Source: Planctomycetaceae bacterium
Lineage (GTDB): Bacteria > Planctomycetota > Planctomycetia > Pirellulales > UBA1268
Direction of reading: 5' to 3'
Assembly (NCBI GenBank): GCA_005791575.1
Contig: SXWA01000038.1
Location: 1-32,236 of the forward strand
DNA: 32,236 nt
The translations under genes were made by a program, and so were the position numbers. Every line of letters begins with the position of its first letter. Positions within the stretch are counted from its first letter, which is position 1. The notes beneath the pieces were generated by a model. It was not told the origin of the DNA and made no database searches. It was given only the letters and a program-made list of their open reading frames with translations. This document shows, piece after piece, positions 4,192 through 32,236 of the stretch.

Positions 4192-5052
4192 TCAGGCGCG
4201 GGTGCCGTCCTTCCGCGCGGCAAGGCGGGTCTCGAGCCAGAGGGTCAACGCCGCACCGACGCACCCGAGGGCGGCGCCGAACAAGATGTCACTCGGATAG
4301 TGCGCCGACGAACTGACCCGTTGGAGCGCTGCGAGGGTGGCGAACCCCACAAACAGCCATCGGCCCCGCGGATACCGGTACGCGAGCGCTGCCGCCAGCC
4401 CCGCAGCCGCGGCCGCATGCCCGGAGGGAAAGCTGAGGAGGTCCGCCGAGCCGGGATCGGGAATCCCCACCAGCGCCGTGTCGAAGGTGGCGAGGGGGTT
4501 CGTGGCAGCGTGCAGATCGAGCGCGCGGGGACGGACGCGGCGGACGACGAGTTTCACCAGATCGACGAGCAATCCGCCGGTCACCGCCATGGCAAGAAGC
4601 CTGGCGATCGCGGGTCTGATCCGAGCCGTGATCCGAGCCGGCATCCAGGCTGTCACCGCGCCTGGCGGCCCCTCGGAGGCCCGCGGTGGTCTGGCACGTT
4701 CGCCGGCCGTTCGCTGCCAGAGGCCGGTGTCGAGGACCAACGCCGTGAGGAGGATACCGGCCACCCCCCAGCCCTGGGCGAAGGCCTCACTGATGCCGAG
4801 CAAACGGTTCACCTCGCCGGGCAGCGGTCGGCCCGCGATCCACCGGGCGACCGCCACGTCGATCGGCAGGACGACGCACCCCAGACCACACAATCCGAGT
4901 GCCACGACGACGAGCCCGCGCGGCGTCGGAGCCGCCCCCGGGGAAGTGACCGATGTTCGTTGGCGGTTGGCTCCGGGGCCATGCGCAGCGCCGGCCCGCG
5001 AGGGATGGTCTCCCCGCTTGGCATCGCCGGTTCGTGTCGTAGAACGTCCCAT
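4192..5052 (-). CDS. PAP2-family membrane phosphatase
   Basis: Integral membrane phosphatase of the PAP2/type 2 phosphatidic acid phosphatase superfamily, acting on lipid phosphates or undecaprenyl pyrophosphate. All three signature motifs are present: KLVVRRVRP (K-x6-RP), FPSGH, and RVSSSAHYPSD (R-x5-H-x3-D), carrying the nucleophilic and proton-donor histidines. Several hydrophobic helices are evident (VVVALGLCGLGCVVLPI, AGILLTALVLDTGL, and the C-terminal pair). The 286-residue start at the ATG at 5052 is chosen; the frame remains open to a GTG at 5100, which would lengthen an N-terminus of low complexity. It lies downstream of the structured region after yifB, and no substrate-specific neighbour is evident. 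Confidence 0.85.
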   Translation of the reverse strand: MGRSTTRTGDAKRGDHPSRAGAAHGPGANRQRTSVTSPGAAPTPRGLVVVALGLCGLGCVVLPIDVAVARWIAGRPLPGEVNRLLGISEAFAQGWGVAGILLTALVLDTGLWQRTAGERARPPRASEGPPGAVTAWMPARITARIRPAIARLLAMAVTGGLLVDLVKLVVRRVRPRALDLHAATNPLATFDTALVGIPDPGSADLLSFPSGHAAAAAGLAAALAYRYPRGRWLFVGFATLAALQRVSSSAHYPSDILFGAALGCVGAALTLWLETRLAARKDGTRA

Positions 5053-5155
5053 GCCCGCATCGTGCCACAGCCCGACCGTTGCGGGAAAGGCCGTCGTCAC
5101 CCGGGAGGGCGCCCCGGACGGTGGTTTCAGCGGCAGTGGACGAAGGGCCTGCTAC

Positions 5156-5277
5156 CAGGCTGTGGCCAAACAGCCTGCTGCACCTCACGGATGTGGTGCC
5201 GGGAGCGCACCTCCCGTGAAAAGCGCAGCTTTTCGGGTGGTCAAAGGCCAGGGATGGACTTTGGCCACGGGCTGCTA
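5156..5277 (-). repeat. Multi-hairpin intergenic element downstream of yifB
   Basis: Four consecutive inverted repeats fill the yifB-PAP2 gap. They are: 5237-5249/5256-5268, a 13-base stem with one G-U pair and one mismatch around AGGGAT; 5218-5224/5228-5234, a perfect GAAAAGC/GCTTTTC stem; a nested structure at about 5186-5219, with outer TCACGG/CCGTGA and inner GGTGC/GCACC; and 5156-5162/5171-5177, a perfect CAGGCTG/CAGCCTG stem. The 5253-5277 end, which includes the yifB TAG stop codon, is repeated at 32211-32236. It could act as a terminator or RNA-stabilising structure, or be a REP/MITE-like repeat. Confidence 0.65.
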
Positions 5278-6813
5278 CGCCCAGACCTTGCGATCGAGGA
5301 TCCGGTAGTTGATCGCTTCGCTGAGATGGCCGCAGGAGATCCGCTCCGCGCTGTCGAGGTCGGCGATCGTGCGGGCGACACGCAGGATCTTGTCGTGAGC
5401 CCGGGCCGAGAGCCCCAGATCGGTGACCGCGCCCCGCAGCAACTCCACGGCGGCGCCGTCGACAGGGCAGAGTTCGCGGATCTGGCGGGCGGTCATCCGG
5501 GCATTGGAACGAGTGGGCAGCCCCCGGAATCGCTCGGCCTGCCGGGCCCGCGCGGCGAGCACGGCGTCGCGCATCTGGGCGCTCGACGTGCCCGCCCGGC
5601 TGCTCGACAACTCGCGGAACGGCACCGCCGGCACCTCCATGTGGATGTCGATGCGATCGAGGAGCGGCCCCGAGATCCGCCCCATGTATTTCTCCACCTG
5701 CGGGGTGGTGCACTGGCACTCCCGGCGCGGATCGCCCCGGTAGCCGCAGGGGCAGGGGTTGAACGCCGCCACGAGGATGAAGTCAGCGGGGAAACGGGTC
5801 GTCGACCGCGCCCGGCTGATCGTCACAGCCGCCTCTTCGAGCGGCTGCCGCAGCACTTCGAGCGTGCGCCGGTTGAACTCCGGGAGTTCGTCGAGGAACA
5901 GGACGCCGTTGTGGGCGAGGCTGATCTCGCCCGGCATCGGCACCGAGCGGCCACCCACCAGCCCGGCTTCGGAAATCGTGTGGTGCGGCGCGCGGAACGG
6001 CCGGGTCACCACCAGCGGCTGCCCGAGCGCGAGCAGGCCCAGGGCACTGTAGATGCGGCTCGTCTCGATCGACTCGGCGGCCGAAAGCGGCGGCAGGATC
6101 GTGGCGATCCGTTTGGCGAGCATCGTCTTGCCACCGCCGGGTGGACCGAGCATGGCGATGTTGTGGCCGCCGGCGGCGGCGACGCAGATCGCCCGCTTGG
6201 CGGCTTCCTGCCCGCGGACGTCGGAGAAGTCGATGTCGTAGCTGGCGAAACGATCGAAGTATTCGCTGACCCGTGACGGCGAGCGGGGAATGTCGAGATC
6301 CCCGGCGAAGAACCGCACCGCCTCCGTCAGCGACGATACCGGGATCACCTCGACGTCCTCCACCACGGCCGCCTCCATCGCGCTTGCCGTGGGGACGACG
6401 ACACCGCGCAGCGACCGCTGCCGTGCGGCCGAGATCGCCATCGACAGGGCACCCCGCGCCGGCCTCGTCTGGCCCTCGAGCGACAGCTCGCCGACCACCG
6501 CATAGTCCCGGAACCGCTCGGCGGAGAATTGACCACTGCCGGCGAGGATGCCGAGGGTGATCGGCAGATCGAACGTGGCTGCCTGCTTGGGAAGCTCTGC
6601 CGGGGCGAGATTGACGACGATCCGCTCCGTGGGGCGGTGGAAGCCACAGTTGACCATCGCCCGGGCGACGCGATGCGTGCTCTCGCGGATCGCGGCGTCG
6701 GGAAGCCCGACCAGCACCGTGGCGGGCAACGCCCCGGCCGAGACGTCGACCTCCACGTCGACGGGCACCGCATCGATGCCGAGAAGGGAAAATGTCTGCA
6801 GTTTGGCGAGCAT
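5275..6813 (-). CDS. comM: ComM/YifB-family Mg-chelatase-like AAA+ ATPase
   Basis: A 512-residue protein, close to the length of E. coli YifB (about 506). Relatives of ComM are hexameric helicases that promote branch migration of incoming DNA in natural transformation. The N-terminal ChlI-like, Lon-protease-like fold is at about residues 20-140. The AAA+ module has Walker A GPPGGGKT at 223-230 and Walker B VLFLDELPEF. The cysteine-rich PCPCGYRGDPRRECQC typical of the family follows, then sensor/arginine region RISGPLLDRIDIH and the Mg-chelatase C-terminal domain. The ATG at 6813 has GGAGG about nine bases upstream. The frame stays open for more than 1,100 codons further upstream, antisense to the peptidase gene, but that is a base-composition artefact. 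The TAG stop is also the first codon of a dispersed repeat. Confidence 0.93.
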   Translation of the reverse strand: MLAKLQTFSLLGIDAVPVDVEVDVSAGALPATVLVGLPDAAIRESTHRVARAMVNCGFHRPTERIVVNLAPAELPKQAATFDLPITLGILAGSGQFSAERFRDYAVVGELSLEGQTRPARGALSMAISAARQRSLRGVVVPTASAMEAAVVEDVEVIPVSSLTEAVRFFAGDLDIPRSPSRVSEYFDRFASYDIDFSDVRGQEAAKRAICVAAAGGHNIAMLGPPGGGKTMLAKRIATILPPLSAAESIETSRIYSALGLLALGQPLVVTRPFRAPHHTISEAGLVGGRSVPMPGEISLAHNGVLFLDELPEFNRRTLEVLRQPLEEAAVTISRARSTTRFPADFILVAAFNPCPCGYRGDPRRECQCTTPQVEKYMGRISGPLLDRIDIHMEVPAVPFRELSSSRAGTSSAQMRDAVLAARARQAERFRGLPTRSNARMTARQIRELCPVDGAAVELLRGAVTDLGLSARAHDKILRVARTIADLDSAERISCGHLSEAINYRILDRKVWA

Positions 6814-6854
6814 GGGTCTGTCCTCCGCACCTCGGTTTGCCCCGACGGCCAAAG

Positions 6855-6882
6855 TGTGTACGGCCGTACAGTTCTCTGTCAA
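6855..6882 (-). promoter_or_regulatory. yifB/comM promoter with palindromic operator
   Basis: On the minus strand a perfect TTGACA -35 (6882-6877), a 16-base spacer and TACACA (6860-6855) as -10. The 14-bp perfect palindrome TGTACGGCCGTACA (6857-6870) covers the spacer and most of the -10, a classic repressor operator position. Leader to the ATG would be about 35 bases. The palindrome also lies upstream of the divergent peptidase gene at 6970. Confidence 0.55.
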
Positions 6883-6969
6883 GTGCCGTCGGCTCGCCTC
6901 ACCGGATCGGATACGCTGATCCGCTCGCGGCCTGGTCTGGCCGTGCAGTCCCCGAAGGGTGGAGTCACG

Positions 6970-9729
6970 ATGTCGTCTGCACGAACTGTGGTTCGGTCCT
7001 TGGCCGGTGCGCTCGTCCTGGTGCCGCTGGTCGCCCTCGTTGCCGGCCTGGGATTCCCGGGCTCGATGGCGATCGCTGACGAGGGGATGTGGCTCTACAG
7101 CCATCCGCCGCGCGAGCGGCTCAAGCGCGAGCACGGCGTCGAGCTCTCCTCCGACTGGCTGACGCACCTGCAACAGTCCTCGGTGCGCTTCAATTCGGGC
7201 GGTTCGGGGTCGTTCGTCTCCGCCGACGGTCTCGTGCTCACCAACCACCACGTCGGGGCCGATTCCCTGCAGAAGCTCGGTGACGAGCGGCACGACTACT
7301 ACCGCGACGGCTTCATCGCCGCCCGGCGCGAGGACGAATTGAAGTGCCTCGACCTCGAGCTCAATGTCCTGGTGTCGATCGAGGATGTGACCGCCACGGT
7401 GGAGGCGGTGGTGACGCCGGGCATGGGGGCCGACGCCGCGTTCGCCGCGCGGCGCAAGGCGATGGCGGAGATCGAGCAGGCGTCGCTGGCGGCGACCGGC
7501 CTGCGGAGCGACGTGGTCACGCTCCACCAGGGGGGCGCCTACCACCTCTACCGGGCCAGGAAATACACCGACGTCCGTCTCGTCTTCGCACCGGAACGGC
7601 AGATCGCCTTCTTCGGCGGCGATGCCGACAACTTCGAGTATCCGCGCTACAACCTCGACATGTGCCTGTTCCGCGCCTACGAGAACGGGGCGCCCGCCAA
7701 GGTGCCGCACCATCTCGTCTGGGCATCGACACCGGTGGCGGAGGGGGATCTCGTCTTCGTCTCGGGCCACCCCGGCCACACCGACCGGGCCAACACGATG
7801 CGCGAACTGGTGGCGATGCGCGACCGGCAGATGCCCTGGTCGCTCGCCGCGCTCAATCGGCTCGAGGTCCTCTACACCTCGTACGCCGGGCAGGGGCCGG
7901 AACAGGCGCGGCAGGCGGCCGACGACCTGTTCGGCGTGCAGAACTCGCGGAAGGCCCGGCTCGGGGTCTACGCCGGCCTCCTCGATCCACGGATCATGGC
8001 GGCCAGGCGCGCCGCCGAGGAGCGCGACCGGGCCGCGGTCGCGAAGCGGGCCACCCCCGGCACGCCAACGCCGTACGCGCGGATCGAGGAAGTGGAGAAA
8101 GAGCTCGACGCGGTGGCCCGGCGCCACAGCCTGCTCGAGGCGGGCGCCGCCTTCAACAGCAAGTACTTCGCCAATGCGAAGACGATCCTCCGCGCCGCCG
8201 ACGAGGCGGCCAAGGGAAGCGGTGAGCGGCTCCGCGAGTTCCGCGACTCCAACCGGGAGTCGCTCGAGATGCAGCTCTTCTCCAAGGAGCCGATCCACGA
8301 CGACCTCGAGATCGCCAAGCTCACCGACTCGCTCTCGTTTTTCGCCGCATCTCTCGGCGGCGACGACCCGCTCGTGCAGAAGGTGCTGGCGGGGAAGGCG
8401 CCGCGCGAGCGGGCCACCGAGCTCGTCCGCGGCAGCCATCTCGGCACGCGCCCGACCCCGGCGGGCGCGGCCCCGCTCCCCGACACGCGCCGCGAGCTCT
8501 ACGACGCCGGCCGCGCGGGGGGCAGGGCGGCGGTGGAGAAGGGGGGCGACCCGATGGTGGCCCTGGCGGCACTGGTCGACGACGAGGCACGCCGCCTGCG
8601 GGCGATCGTCGAGAAGGCCGGGGAGGTGAAGCGTCAGGCCCACGCCGAGATCACGCGGGCCCGGTTCGCCACGGAGGGTGAATCGCTCTATCCCGATGCC
8701 ACGTTCACCCTCCGCCTCGCCTACGGCACCGTGAAGGGCTACCGCCAGGACGAGCGCACCGTCCCGGCGCACACCACCTATGCCGGCCTCTTCGACCGGG
8801 CCGACGAGAAGCGTGAGACGCCCCCCTTCGACCTGCCCGCCCGGTGGCGTGAGCAGCGGGCGACGCTCGAGAAGGACGACGCCTTCCTCCGCACGCCGTT
8901 CAACTTCGTCTGCACCGCCGACATCATCGGCGGCAACTCCGGCAGTCCCGTCGTCAATACCAAGGGGGAACTCGTCGGCCTGATCTTCGACGGCAACATC
9001 CACTCGCTCGTCCTCGACGTGGCCTACGACGACGCCCTCGCCCGGGCGGTGAGCGTGGATGCCGCCGGGATGCTCGCGGCGTTGGAGAAGGTCTACGGGG
9101 CCACCGACCTCGTGCGTGAGCTGCGCGGACCGGCTCCACCGGCCCGGGCCGCTGCCGCCGACGGCTGGAAGCCCCTCTTCGACGGCGAGGCGCTCGGCGG
9201 CTGGCGGAGCACGGCGTTCGGCGGCGAGGGGGAGGTGCGCGTCGACGACGGGTCGATCCGCATCGGCATCGGTGCCGACATGAGCGGGATCACCTGGACG
9301 AAGGACTTTCCCCGGCAGCACTACGAATTCGCCTGCGAGGCGCAGCGTGTCGACGGCAGCGACTTCTTCTGCGGGGTCACGTTCCCGGTCGGCGACGATC
9401 CCTGCAGTTTCATCGTCGGCGGCTGGGGTGGCGGGGTGATCGGCCTGTCGAACATCGACGGCCGCGACGCCGCCCATAACGACACGACGCAGTTCCGCGA
9501 ATTCAAGAACCAGCGCTGGTACGCGATCCGGGTGCGCGTCACGCCGGAGCGGATCGAGTGCTTCATCGACGACGAGCAGGTGGTCAACCAGGATCTCGAC
9601 GGTCGTACCATTTCGGTGCGGCCGGAGGTGATCCCCTCCAAGCCGCTGGGTATCGCCACCTATGCGACGGCGGCCAAGATCCGCGGGATCCGCTGGCGGC
9701 CGCTGCCGGCGGGAGACCGCGCTGAATAG
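6970..9729 (+). CDS. Exported S46-family dipeptidyl-peptidase fused to a DUF1080 domain
   Basis: A 919-residue exported protein with an N-terminal signal peptide (hydrophobic ALVLVPLVALVAGLGF, cut near AIADEG). Residues about 38-715 form a complete S46 peptidase: SGSFVSADGLVLTNHH (His93/94), FFGGDADNFEYPRYNLD (Asp region, about 218-230), SGHPGHTDR, and nucleophile Ser657 in GGNSGSPV. The position of the DPP11 specificity Arg673 is Gly675 here (IFDGN), the DPP7 type, suggesting hydrophobic rather than acidic P1 residues. After a short linker, residues about 730-915 are a DUF1080 (3-keto-disaccharide hydrolase/LamG-like) domain beginning GWKPLFDGEALGGW. Family length for S46 alone is about 700, so the extra domain is a genuine fusion. 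The ATG has GGTGGAG upstream; the TAG stop is the first codon of a 25-bp repeat array. Confidence 0.9.
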   Translation: MSSARTVVRSLAGALVLVPLVALVAGLGFPGSMAIADEGMWLYSHPPRERLKREHGVELSSDWLTHLQQSSVRFNSGGSGSFVSADGLVLTNHHVGADSLQKLGDERHDYYRDGFIAARREDELKCLDLELNVLVSIEDVTATVEAVVTPGMGADAAFAARRKAMAEIEQASLAATGLRSDVVTLHQGGAYHLYRARKYTDVRLVFAPERQIAFFGGDADNFEYPRYNLDMCLFRAYENGAPAKVPHHLVWASTPVAEGDLVFVSGHPGHTDRANTMRELVAMRDRQMPWSLAALNRLEVLYTSYAGQGPEQARQAADDLFGVQNSRKARLGVYAGLLDPRIMAARRAAEERDRAAVAKRATPGTPTPYARIEEVEKELDAVARRHSLLEAGAAFNSKYFANAKTILRAADEAAKGSGERLREFRDSNRESLEMQLFSKEPIHDDLEIAKLTDSLSFFAASLGGDDPLVQKVLAGKAPRERATELVRGSHLGTRPTPAGAAPLPDTRRELYDAGRAGGRAAVEKGGDPMVALAALVDDEARRLRAIVEKAGEVKRQAHAEITRARFATEGESLYPDATFTLRLAYGTVKGYRQDERTVPAHTTYAGLFDRADEKRETPPFDLPARWREQRATLEKDDAFLRTPFNFVCTADIIGGNSGSPVVNTKGELVGLIFDGNIHSLVLDVAYDDALARAVSVDAAGMLAALEKVYGATDLVRELRGPAPPARAAAADGWKPLFDGEALGGWRSTAFGGEGEVRVDDGSIRIGIGADMSGITWTKDFPRQHYEFACEAQRVDGSDFFCGVTFPVGDDPCSFIVGGWGGGVIGLSNIDGRDAAHNDTTQFREFKNQRWYAIRVRVTPERIECFIDDEQVVNQDLDGRTISVRPEVIPSKPLGIATYATAAKIRGIRWRPLPAGDRAE

Positions 9730-20415: not shown

Positions 20416-20735
20416 GTGTGTCGACAGGCCTCCCGGGGGACGAGCCTCGTTATAGCGGAAGGCGGCGCTGCGAGTCGGCAGCCTCGCGGCCCGCCGCCGG
20501 ATGGTGCCGACGGGCGCCAGTTCCGCGGGCGCCAGGGCGGGCGCACCGCCGGCCAGCGGTGCGTGAACGGGAACACGCGTGGACATTCGGCTGGCTGCTC
20601 CTCACGCCAGGGAAGCCGGGCGCGTCGCTCCCCTGAACAGTGCAGCCTGTCATGTGGCCACAATGCCATGGATAGGATGGTGGCGACGGACTGCCAGCCC
20701 ACGTCACACTCCAACCGTCCGCAGTCGCGATTCCG
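20416..20735. other. Divergent intergenic region between DUF5522-tspO and a membrane protein gene
   Basis: Besides the putative TATAAC element, it has a 10-bp palindrome TGTGGCCACA (20653-20662) and, on the plus strand, TAGGAT near 20673 as a weak -10 for the gene at 20736. The minus-strand frame through 20586 is open but not protein-like. Nothing else is recognisable. Confidence 0.45.
20449..20454 (-). promoter_or_regulatory. Putative -10 element of the DUF5522-tspO operon
   Basis: TATAAC on the minus strand (5/6 match), with CCGACT 18 bases upstream as a weak -35 carrying the central GAC. The transcript would start near 20442 and supports the GTG at 20415. Confidence 0.35.
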
Positions 20736-32210: not shown

Positions 32211-32236
32211 CTAGCAGTCCGTGGCCAAAGTCCATC
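32211..32236 (+). repeat. Dispersed repeat end, second copy (cut by window edge)
   Basis: From TAG at 32212 the plus strand reads TAGCAGTCCGTGGCCAAAG and then TCCATC. The minus strand at 5277-5253 is identical except for one base (CAGCCC for CAGTCC), and there the TAG is the yifB stop. The element continues beyond the window. Confidence 0.8.

Follow-up and report, generated by a model that had tools for sequence, protein, structure and literature searches.

The dense hairpin structure at the 3' end of yifB in the window (the whole stretch of 32,236 nucleotides analysed in the present study) is one copy of a 119-bp non-coding repeat, at 5156-5274 on the minus strand, and is very probably a MITE that was moved in trans into a CTAG-like target with duplication of 4 bp. 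Copy number, ends, target duplication and preference, empty sites, stem compensation and a family-wide distribution were all observed. The element would have been cut or copied into its CTAG-like target by a transposase acting in trans, and this enzyme would have duplicated 4 bp there, GTAG, overlapping the yifB TAG stop codon; judged solely by the duplication, it may be a DDE-type transposase making a 4-bp staggered cut. Any effect of the element on yifB is incidental. The features in the window are as follows.

5156..5274, minus strand: copy of the 119-bp element proper, a putative MITE (nhmmer and covariance model, full length 1-119, 137.1 bits)
5275..5278, minus strand: left target-site duplication GTAG (identical GTAG on both sides; 5275-5277 is the yifB TAG stop codon)
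5152..5155, minus strand: right target-site duplication GTAG (alignment of copies with their flanks; duplication statistics)
5260..5274, minus strand: left terminal inverted repeat CAGCCCGTGGCCAAA (inverted repeat I1, 18 nt, 83% complementary; conserved over copies)
5156..5170, plus strand: right terminal inverted repeat CAGGCTGTGGCCAAA (inverted-repeat search and conservation over copies)
5237..5268, minus strand: hairpin H1, 10-bp stem GTGGCCAAAG/CTTTGGCCAC (one mismatch in the window copy; covariation)
5218..5234, minus strand: hairpin H2, perfect stem GAAAAGC/GCTTTTC with loop TGC (both-side changes at pair 46/52 in 9 of 29 sequences)
5200..5216, minus strand: hairpin H3, CGGGAG/CTCCCG (CGGGAGN TGC GCTCCCG; covariation analyses)
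5180..5199, minus strand: hairpin H4, consensus GCACCTCA TCCG TGAGGTGC (one mismatch in the window copy; both-side changes in 6 of 8 pairs)
5156..5177, minus strand: hairpin H5, CAGGCTGT/ACAGCCTG (perfect 8 bp in the window copy; not conserved family-wide)
5275..6828, minus strand: yifB, ChlI/Mg-chelatase-like ATPase (Pfam PF01078, PF13541, PF13335; 5' end approximate; its stop codon is the insertion target)
4192..5100, minus strand: PAP2-superfamily gene, downstream of yifB and co-directional (Pfam PF01569; 5' end approximate)
20574..20693, minus strand: decayed copy of the 119-bp element (36.1 bits; fold lost, z -0.14)
32215..32236, plus strand: first 22 bases of another copy of the 119-bp element (the contig end cuts the copy)

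The yifB protein finds its best match among named genomes in a Planctomycetota MAG, at 66%. Elsewhere in the window, a single open frame on the plus strand (6529-9729) carries a Peptidase S46 domain and, after it, a 3-keto-disaccharide hydrolase domain.

The first-pass annotation had described 5156-5277 as a dense element of four hairpins and offered three readings of it, a structured RNA, a REP-like element or a folded MITE. The structure is real and goes beyond chance: the minus (yifB) strand of the window copy folds with a z of -4.2, none of 200 shuffles being as low, the opposite strand has a z of -3.3, and the consensus of copies forms exactly five consecutive hairpins (-66.5 kcal/mol, z -6.35). 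The number of hairpins on the minus strand is thus five and not four. The perfect 7-base GAAAAGC stem is present as H2, and what was reported as a nested GGGAG/CACC structure corresponds to H3 together with H4. Because the window copy carries mismatches in H1, H3 and H4, its own minimum-energy fold is a composite.

The genome that includes the window (3.84 Mb in 274 contigs, 74.5% complete) is rich in this repeat. A first search of it gave 55 matches, with many more found by pattern, and the stretches fetched from it held 103 copies or fragments of at least 60 bits, 99 of which have a predicted length of exactly 119 bp. The resulting figure of about 100 copies is a lower bound, more copies lying outside the stretches fetched; size, non-coding content and copy number fall within what is expected of a MITE (70-300 bp, non-coding, many copies). 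The recurrence of the first 25 bases elsewhere in the window, pointed out earlier, was confirmed in the copy that starts at 32215, and the decayed copy at 20574-20693 is a third. Many contigs of the assembly end inside a copy, including that of the window. Repeats that break assemblies and can adjoin stop codons in this way may mislead the annotation of terminators and small RNAs. Searches of phage, plasmid and viral collections gave no match to the element, and a search of the literature found no description of it.

When the copies were aligned with their flanks, similarity ended at CAGCCCG... on one side and ...CAGCCTG on the other, and these ends are inverted repeats of about 15 bp (CAGsCyGTGGCCAAA), as in other MITEs. 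Both flanks could be compared in 47 isolated copies. In 25 of these the 4-mers on the two sides are the same, where shuffling gave a mean of 4.0 and at most 12 in 20,000 shuffles, and none has identical flanks at the other lengths tested, from 2 to 8. The duplications that are not palindromic are direct (GTAG/GTAG, CTAA/CTAA, CTGA/CTGA, CCAA/CCAA and ATAG/ATAG). The target consensus, CTAG, is a rare word: it accounts for 22 of 94 flanking 4-mers, against 28 unmasked occurrences on both strands of about 198 kb. CTAG, GTAG and CTGA all contain stop codons, and the element ends at the stop of a likely ORF (at least 100 codons) in 15 of 120 cases, compared with 6.6 expected from the same words elsewhere; its left end abuts stop codons ten times and its right end nine times. 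The apparent start of the structure on the yifB stop codon has the same origin. The interval first described consists of the 119-bp element plus the stop codon at 5275-5277, and the two adjoin because the duplicated GTAG target contains the yifB TAG. The observation itself therefore stands, whereas the role in yifB that it seemed to imply does not: the position follows from the choice of target.

Relatives provide the corresponding empty sites. The yifB 3' ends of more than 20 relatives have other sequence directly after the stop codon, without the element, and the gap between yifB and the PAP2 gene in the congener G003 has no match to it; in G008 a relative of the element lies about 140 bp downstream of yifB, which is a different place. 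None of the relatives examined shares the window insertion. A second locus (L089) is empty in G003, G010 and G019, with an alignment that spans the empty target, and a third (L079) is empty in the sampled relatives G001, G002 and G003. At L079 and yifB, divergence of the intergenic sequence ends the alignment close to the junction. Three loci are thus empty in relatives, the insertion polymorphism that is expected of a MITE. Together with the dispersed copies, the terminal inverted repeats and the target duplication, this bears out the folded MITE among the readings first offered.

The same observations make a structured RNA or transcription terminator serving yifB extremely improbable, in spite of the position of the window copy on the stop codon and its strong fold on the yifB strand. 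In the relatives examined no such element sits at the end of yifB; in the genome of the window it is dispersed throughout, and it abuts stops in both orientations. A search for an intrinsic terminator (a stem followed by a T-tract) found no terminator-like site, and Rfam gave no family match, either at curated thresholds or at E values up to 1. Mispairs in the stems, 18 G-T and 16 A-C, show no G-U bias on either strand, and since the two kinds are equally common, neither strand displays the wobble tolerance expected of a selected RNA. An RNA or terminator for yifB was rejected on these grounds, and with it the first of the readings proposed at the outset.

The fold is nevertheless conserved in a way that its sequence is not. 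Covariation was examined in 30 diverse copies, mostly from the same genus, with others from G006 and G013. Standard pairs occupy 93.1% of the pair cells, and changes on both sides affect 15 of 40 pairs and 37 cells, compared with 4.6 pairs and 6.1 cells in shuffles; when the partners are slid by 1-3 bases, pairing drops to 33-50%. An unsupervised consensus fold of 22 family-wide sequences recovered H1-H4, with 13 of 32 pairs compensated, and H5 is not conserved at that level. The absence of other genomic copies and of covariation had been named as what would tell against the structure; both were looked for and both are present.

A covariance model built from the 30 diverse copies extended the search to other genera, as had been proposed in the first-pass annotation, and gave matches in 32 of the 59 related genomes searched; most of these genomes belong to the same family, and they cover most of its genera. 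These relatives are mostly 117-121 bp long and keep the hairpin order with other stem sequences (e.g., H3 as GAGTGC/GCACTC and H4 as GACCGC/GCGGTC), and many have CTAG on both sides. Longer forms of 149-151 bp share this layout; they were seen in the order's families f2, f4 and f15, and TTAG/TTAG or CTAA/CTAA duplications flank some of them. Among 149 genomes drawn from the class, a search with stricter filters gave matches in only four, the genome of the window included. Five-hairpin repeats of 149-151 bp with ends CAGnCyGTTGAAAAA were seen at L304, L307, L310, L312, L305 (G128, G091), L268, L308 (G036) and L274 (G038), and are probably deeper relatives of the 119-bp element. Two congeners, G001 and G002, carry in addition a sister family of about 118 bp (CTGTCCGTGGACAAAG...CGGTCTG; L100, L102-L106 and L108-L110), which has an unrelated middle and the same hairpin plan and coexists there with the main family.

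What the fold is for can be approached through the mutations of 68 copies in the genome of the window. Stems carry 0.58 private mutations per site and loops 0.79 (p=0.13), a similar density, while shared variants are rarer in stems, at 1.69 per site compared with 5.97 in loops, and compensating pairs make up the majority of the commonly shared stem variants. In Fisher tests the contrast between private and shared variants in stems and loops reaches only moderate significance (p 0.04 to 0.11). Since stems survive in the shared variants and private mutations strike stems and loops alike, the fold is probably needed as DNA by the copies that jump, and not as RNA by yifB. On the most economical view, copies would decay freely after insertion, and only those with intact stems would have founded new ones. 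The fold itself thus seems to be what the element needs to spread, and the hairpins might act in transposing copies either as hairpins in single-stranded DNA or as palindromic binding sites for a protein.

The main rival on this point accepts the MITE but holds that its stems are kept paired by the mechanics of mutation, through hairpin-templated repair or gene conversion between copies, instead of by selection for transposition. Some exchange of this kind is suggested by an orthologous locus in the genome of the window (C190) and in G002 (C25), where both copies are cut at element position ~109 and H2 differs on both sides between the species (GAAAAGC/GCTTTTC and GAAAACC/GGTTTTC), a difference that resembles conversion to another subfamily; members of tandem pairs, moreover, are more alike (97.4%) than random pairs (91.7%). 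Against it, private mutations disrupt stems nearly as readily as loops and the decayed copy at 20574-20693 has lost its fold, which argues that pairs are not routinely mended, and sister families keep the order and spacing of the stems while the stems themselves differ. Mutation mechanics as the keeper of the stems is therefore judged unlikely, and selection for transposition is preferred. At the orthologous locus (G000:C190:22764-22931, L082, L134; G002:C25:25828-25992, L054, L135) both species have a decayed remnant of an IS701-type (DDE_5) transposase with the same truncated MITE, located at an identical point.

Copies also occur in tandem arrays. All 16 of the 16 neighbouring pairs with 4-bp spacing are head-to-tail, and the figure of 97.4% given above comes from the seven pairs in which both members are complete. 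Had the copies inserted independently into a palindromic target, both orientations would be expected; the uniform arrangement, with one shared 4-bp spacer, points instead to tandem amplification or a dimer intermediate as the probable source of the arrays.

An autonomous partner with matching ends, or a candidate transposase, was not found in the genomes searched. In the genus, DDE_Tnp_1 (PF01609) occurs once, in an IS of G003 with no element nearby, and was rejected as the mobiliser; DDE_5 (PF13546) is represented by fragments only, with other ends, and DDE_Tnp_1_4 (PF13701)/IS1380 is absent, with nothing convincing seen. Transposases of the IS701 family (DDE_5) use a YTAR target. That family shares with the element a 4-bp duplication and a CTAG-like target, and its remnants occur in the genus, but their terminal repeats (CTAG|TACTACAACG...) do not match the MITE ends; these remnants were set aside as the parent, and another, unsampled IS701 could still fill that role. 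A search by pattern for longer elements bounded by the MITE ends, which would overlook an autonomous copy with the MITE's bases immediately inward of those ends, returned only MITEs or chance matches, and the ORFs between inverted element pairs about 1 kb apart, judged by eye, include no obvious transposase. No parental element with the same ends was thus seen in the families and patterns searched, in genomes that are incomplete. Partners of MITEs are often missing, and in the genome of the window the partner may simply be absent from an assembly that is incomplete and broken by repeats.

A REPIN-like element, in which palindromic repeats are moved on single strands by a REP-associated tyrosine (HUH, Y1) transposase, was considered as another source of such hairpins. 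Hairpin arrays, a tetranucleotide tag beside each end and persistence in a lineage without an autonomous copy would all suit it, and GTAG-tagged REPs together with tyrosine transposases have been reported in planctomycetes, including R. baltica (PMC3733652). It is nonetheless highly unlikely here. Y1_Tnp (PF01797) was not found in G000-G003, a set in which G002 is 97% and G003 92% complete, and no copy of the element flanks the RAYT-like genes of G006, G008 and G013. Insertion of the IS200/605 type makes no duplication, whereas the 4-mers flanking this element vary together as direct repeats, and the inverted GTAG tag expected at the two ends is not seen. REPIN/RAYT was rejected on the missing Y1 transposase and the direct 4-bp duplications, so that the REP-like reading offered at first fits only loosely: the genus yielded no RAYT, and the flanking repeats are direct instead of inverted. 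The element has the defining features of a MITE that were tested, and not those of REPIN/RAYT.

Conservation of the interior is what sets this MITE apart. The interiors of MITEs are normally unconstrained and thought free to drift, so the constancy of fold and length that sister families show from genus to genus is unusual, and a point against the MITE reading; compensatory change conserves the interior fold in different genera and families, and the ends have a duplication of the DDE type. A claim that can be tested follows, namely that these elements need DNA hairpins in order to transpose, and the findings point to a transposase acting in trans. More tentatively, and with rather less than even confidence, planctomycetes might harbour a class of replicators defined by secondary structure, in which four to five hairpins are kept by compensation as sequence turns over, insertion makes a 4-bp direct duplication, and a trans-acting, possibly host-kept and so far unrecognised transposase provides movement, the class being family-wide and reaching wider in its longer form. 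If true, such a class would be the DDE equivalent of REPIN-RAYT.

Among known systems, the enterobacterial ERIC sequences (about 127 bp, palindromic and intergenic) are described as one long imperfect palindrome; compared on that basis, they are similar to the element in size, palindromic character and intergenic location and differ from its five consecutive hairpins. With REPIN/REP-RAYT systems the element shares palindromic ends, a tetranucleotide beside the ends and long persistence without autonomous copies; it differs in its true 4-bp direct duplication, in having five hairpins where a REPIN has two inverted REPs, and in the lack of any RAYT found in the genus. Bacterial MITEs, reviewed in PMC10969869, include Correia/NEMIS, RUP, Nezha and Chunjie, and have in common with it a short, non-coding sequence, terminal inverted repeats, target duplication, intergenic location, many copies and foldable transcripts (PMC10969869, PMC3733652). 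Here, by contrast, length and hairpin chain are kept across genera by compensatory change, copies form head-to-tail arrays and no parental IS was found.

The Rickettsia palindromic elements mentioned in PMC3733652 are, compared by description, also palindromic repeats and can be read through inside ORFs, a property that is only hinted at for the present element. The element and its duplication together span 119 + 4 = 123 bp, which is a multiple of three, and the consensus is open, or almost so, in three of its six frames. Nine of 76 copies lie inside frames that are open for at least 60 codons on both sides and have high GC3, and some copies in open frames may be translated in frame. In other genera, element and duplication often total 122 bp, and a length divisible by three is not general.
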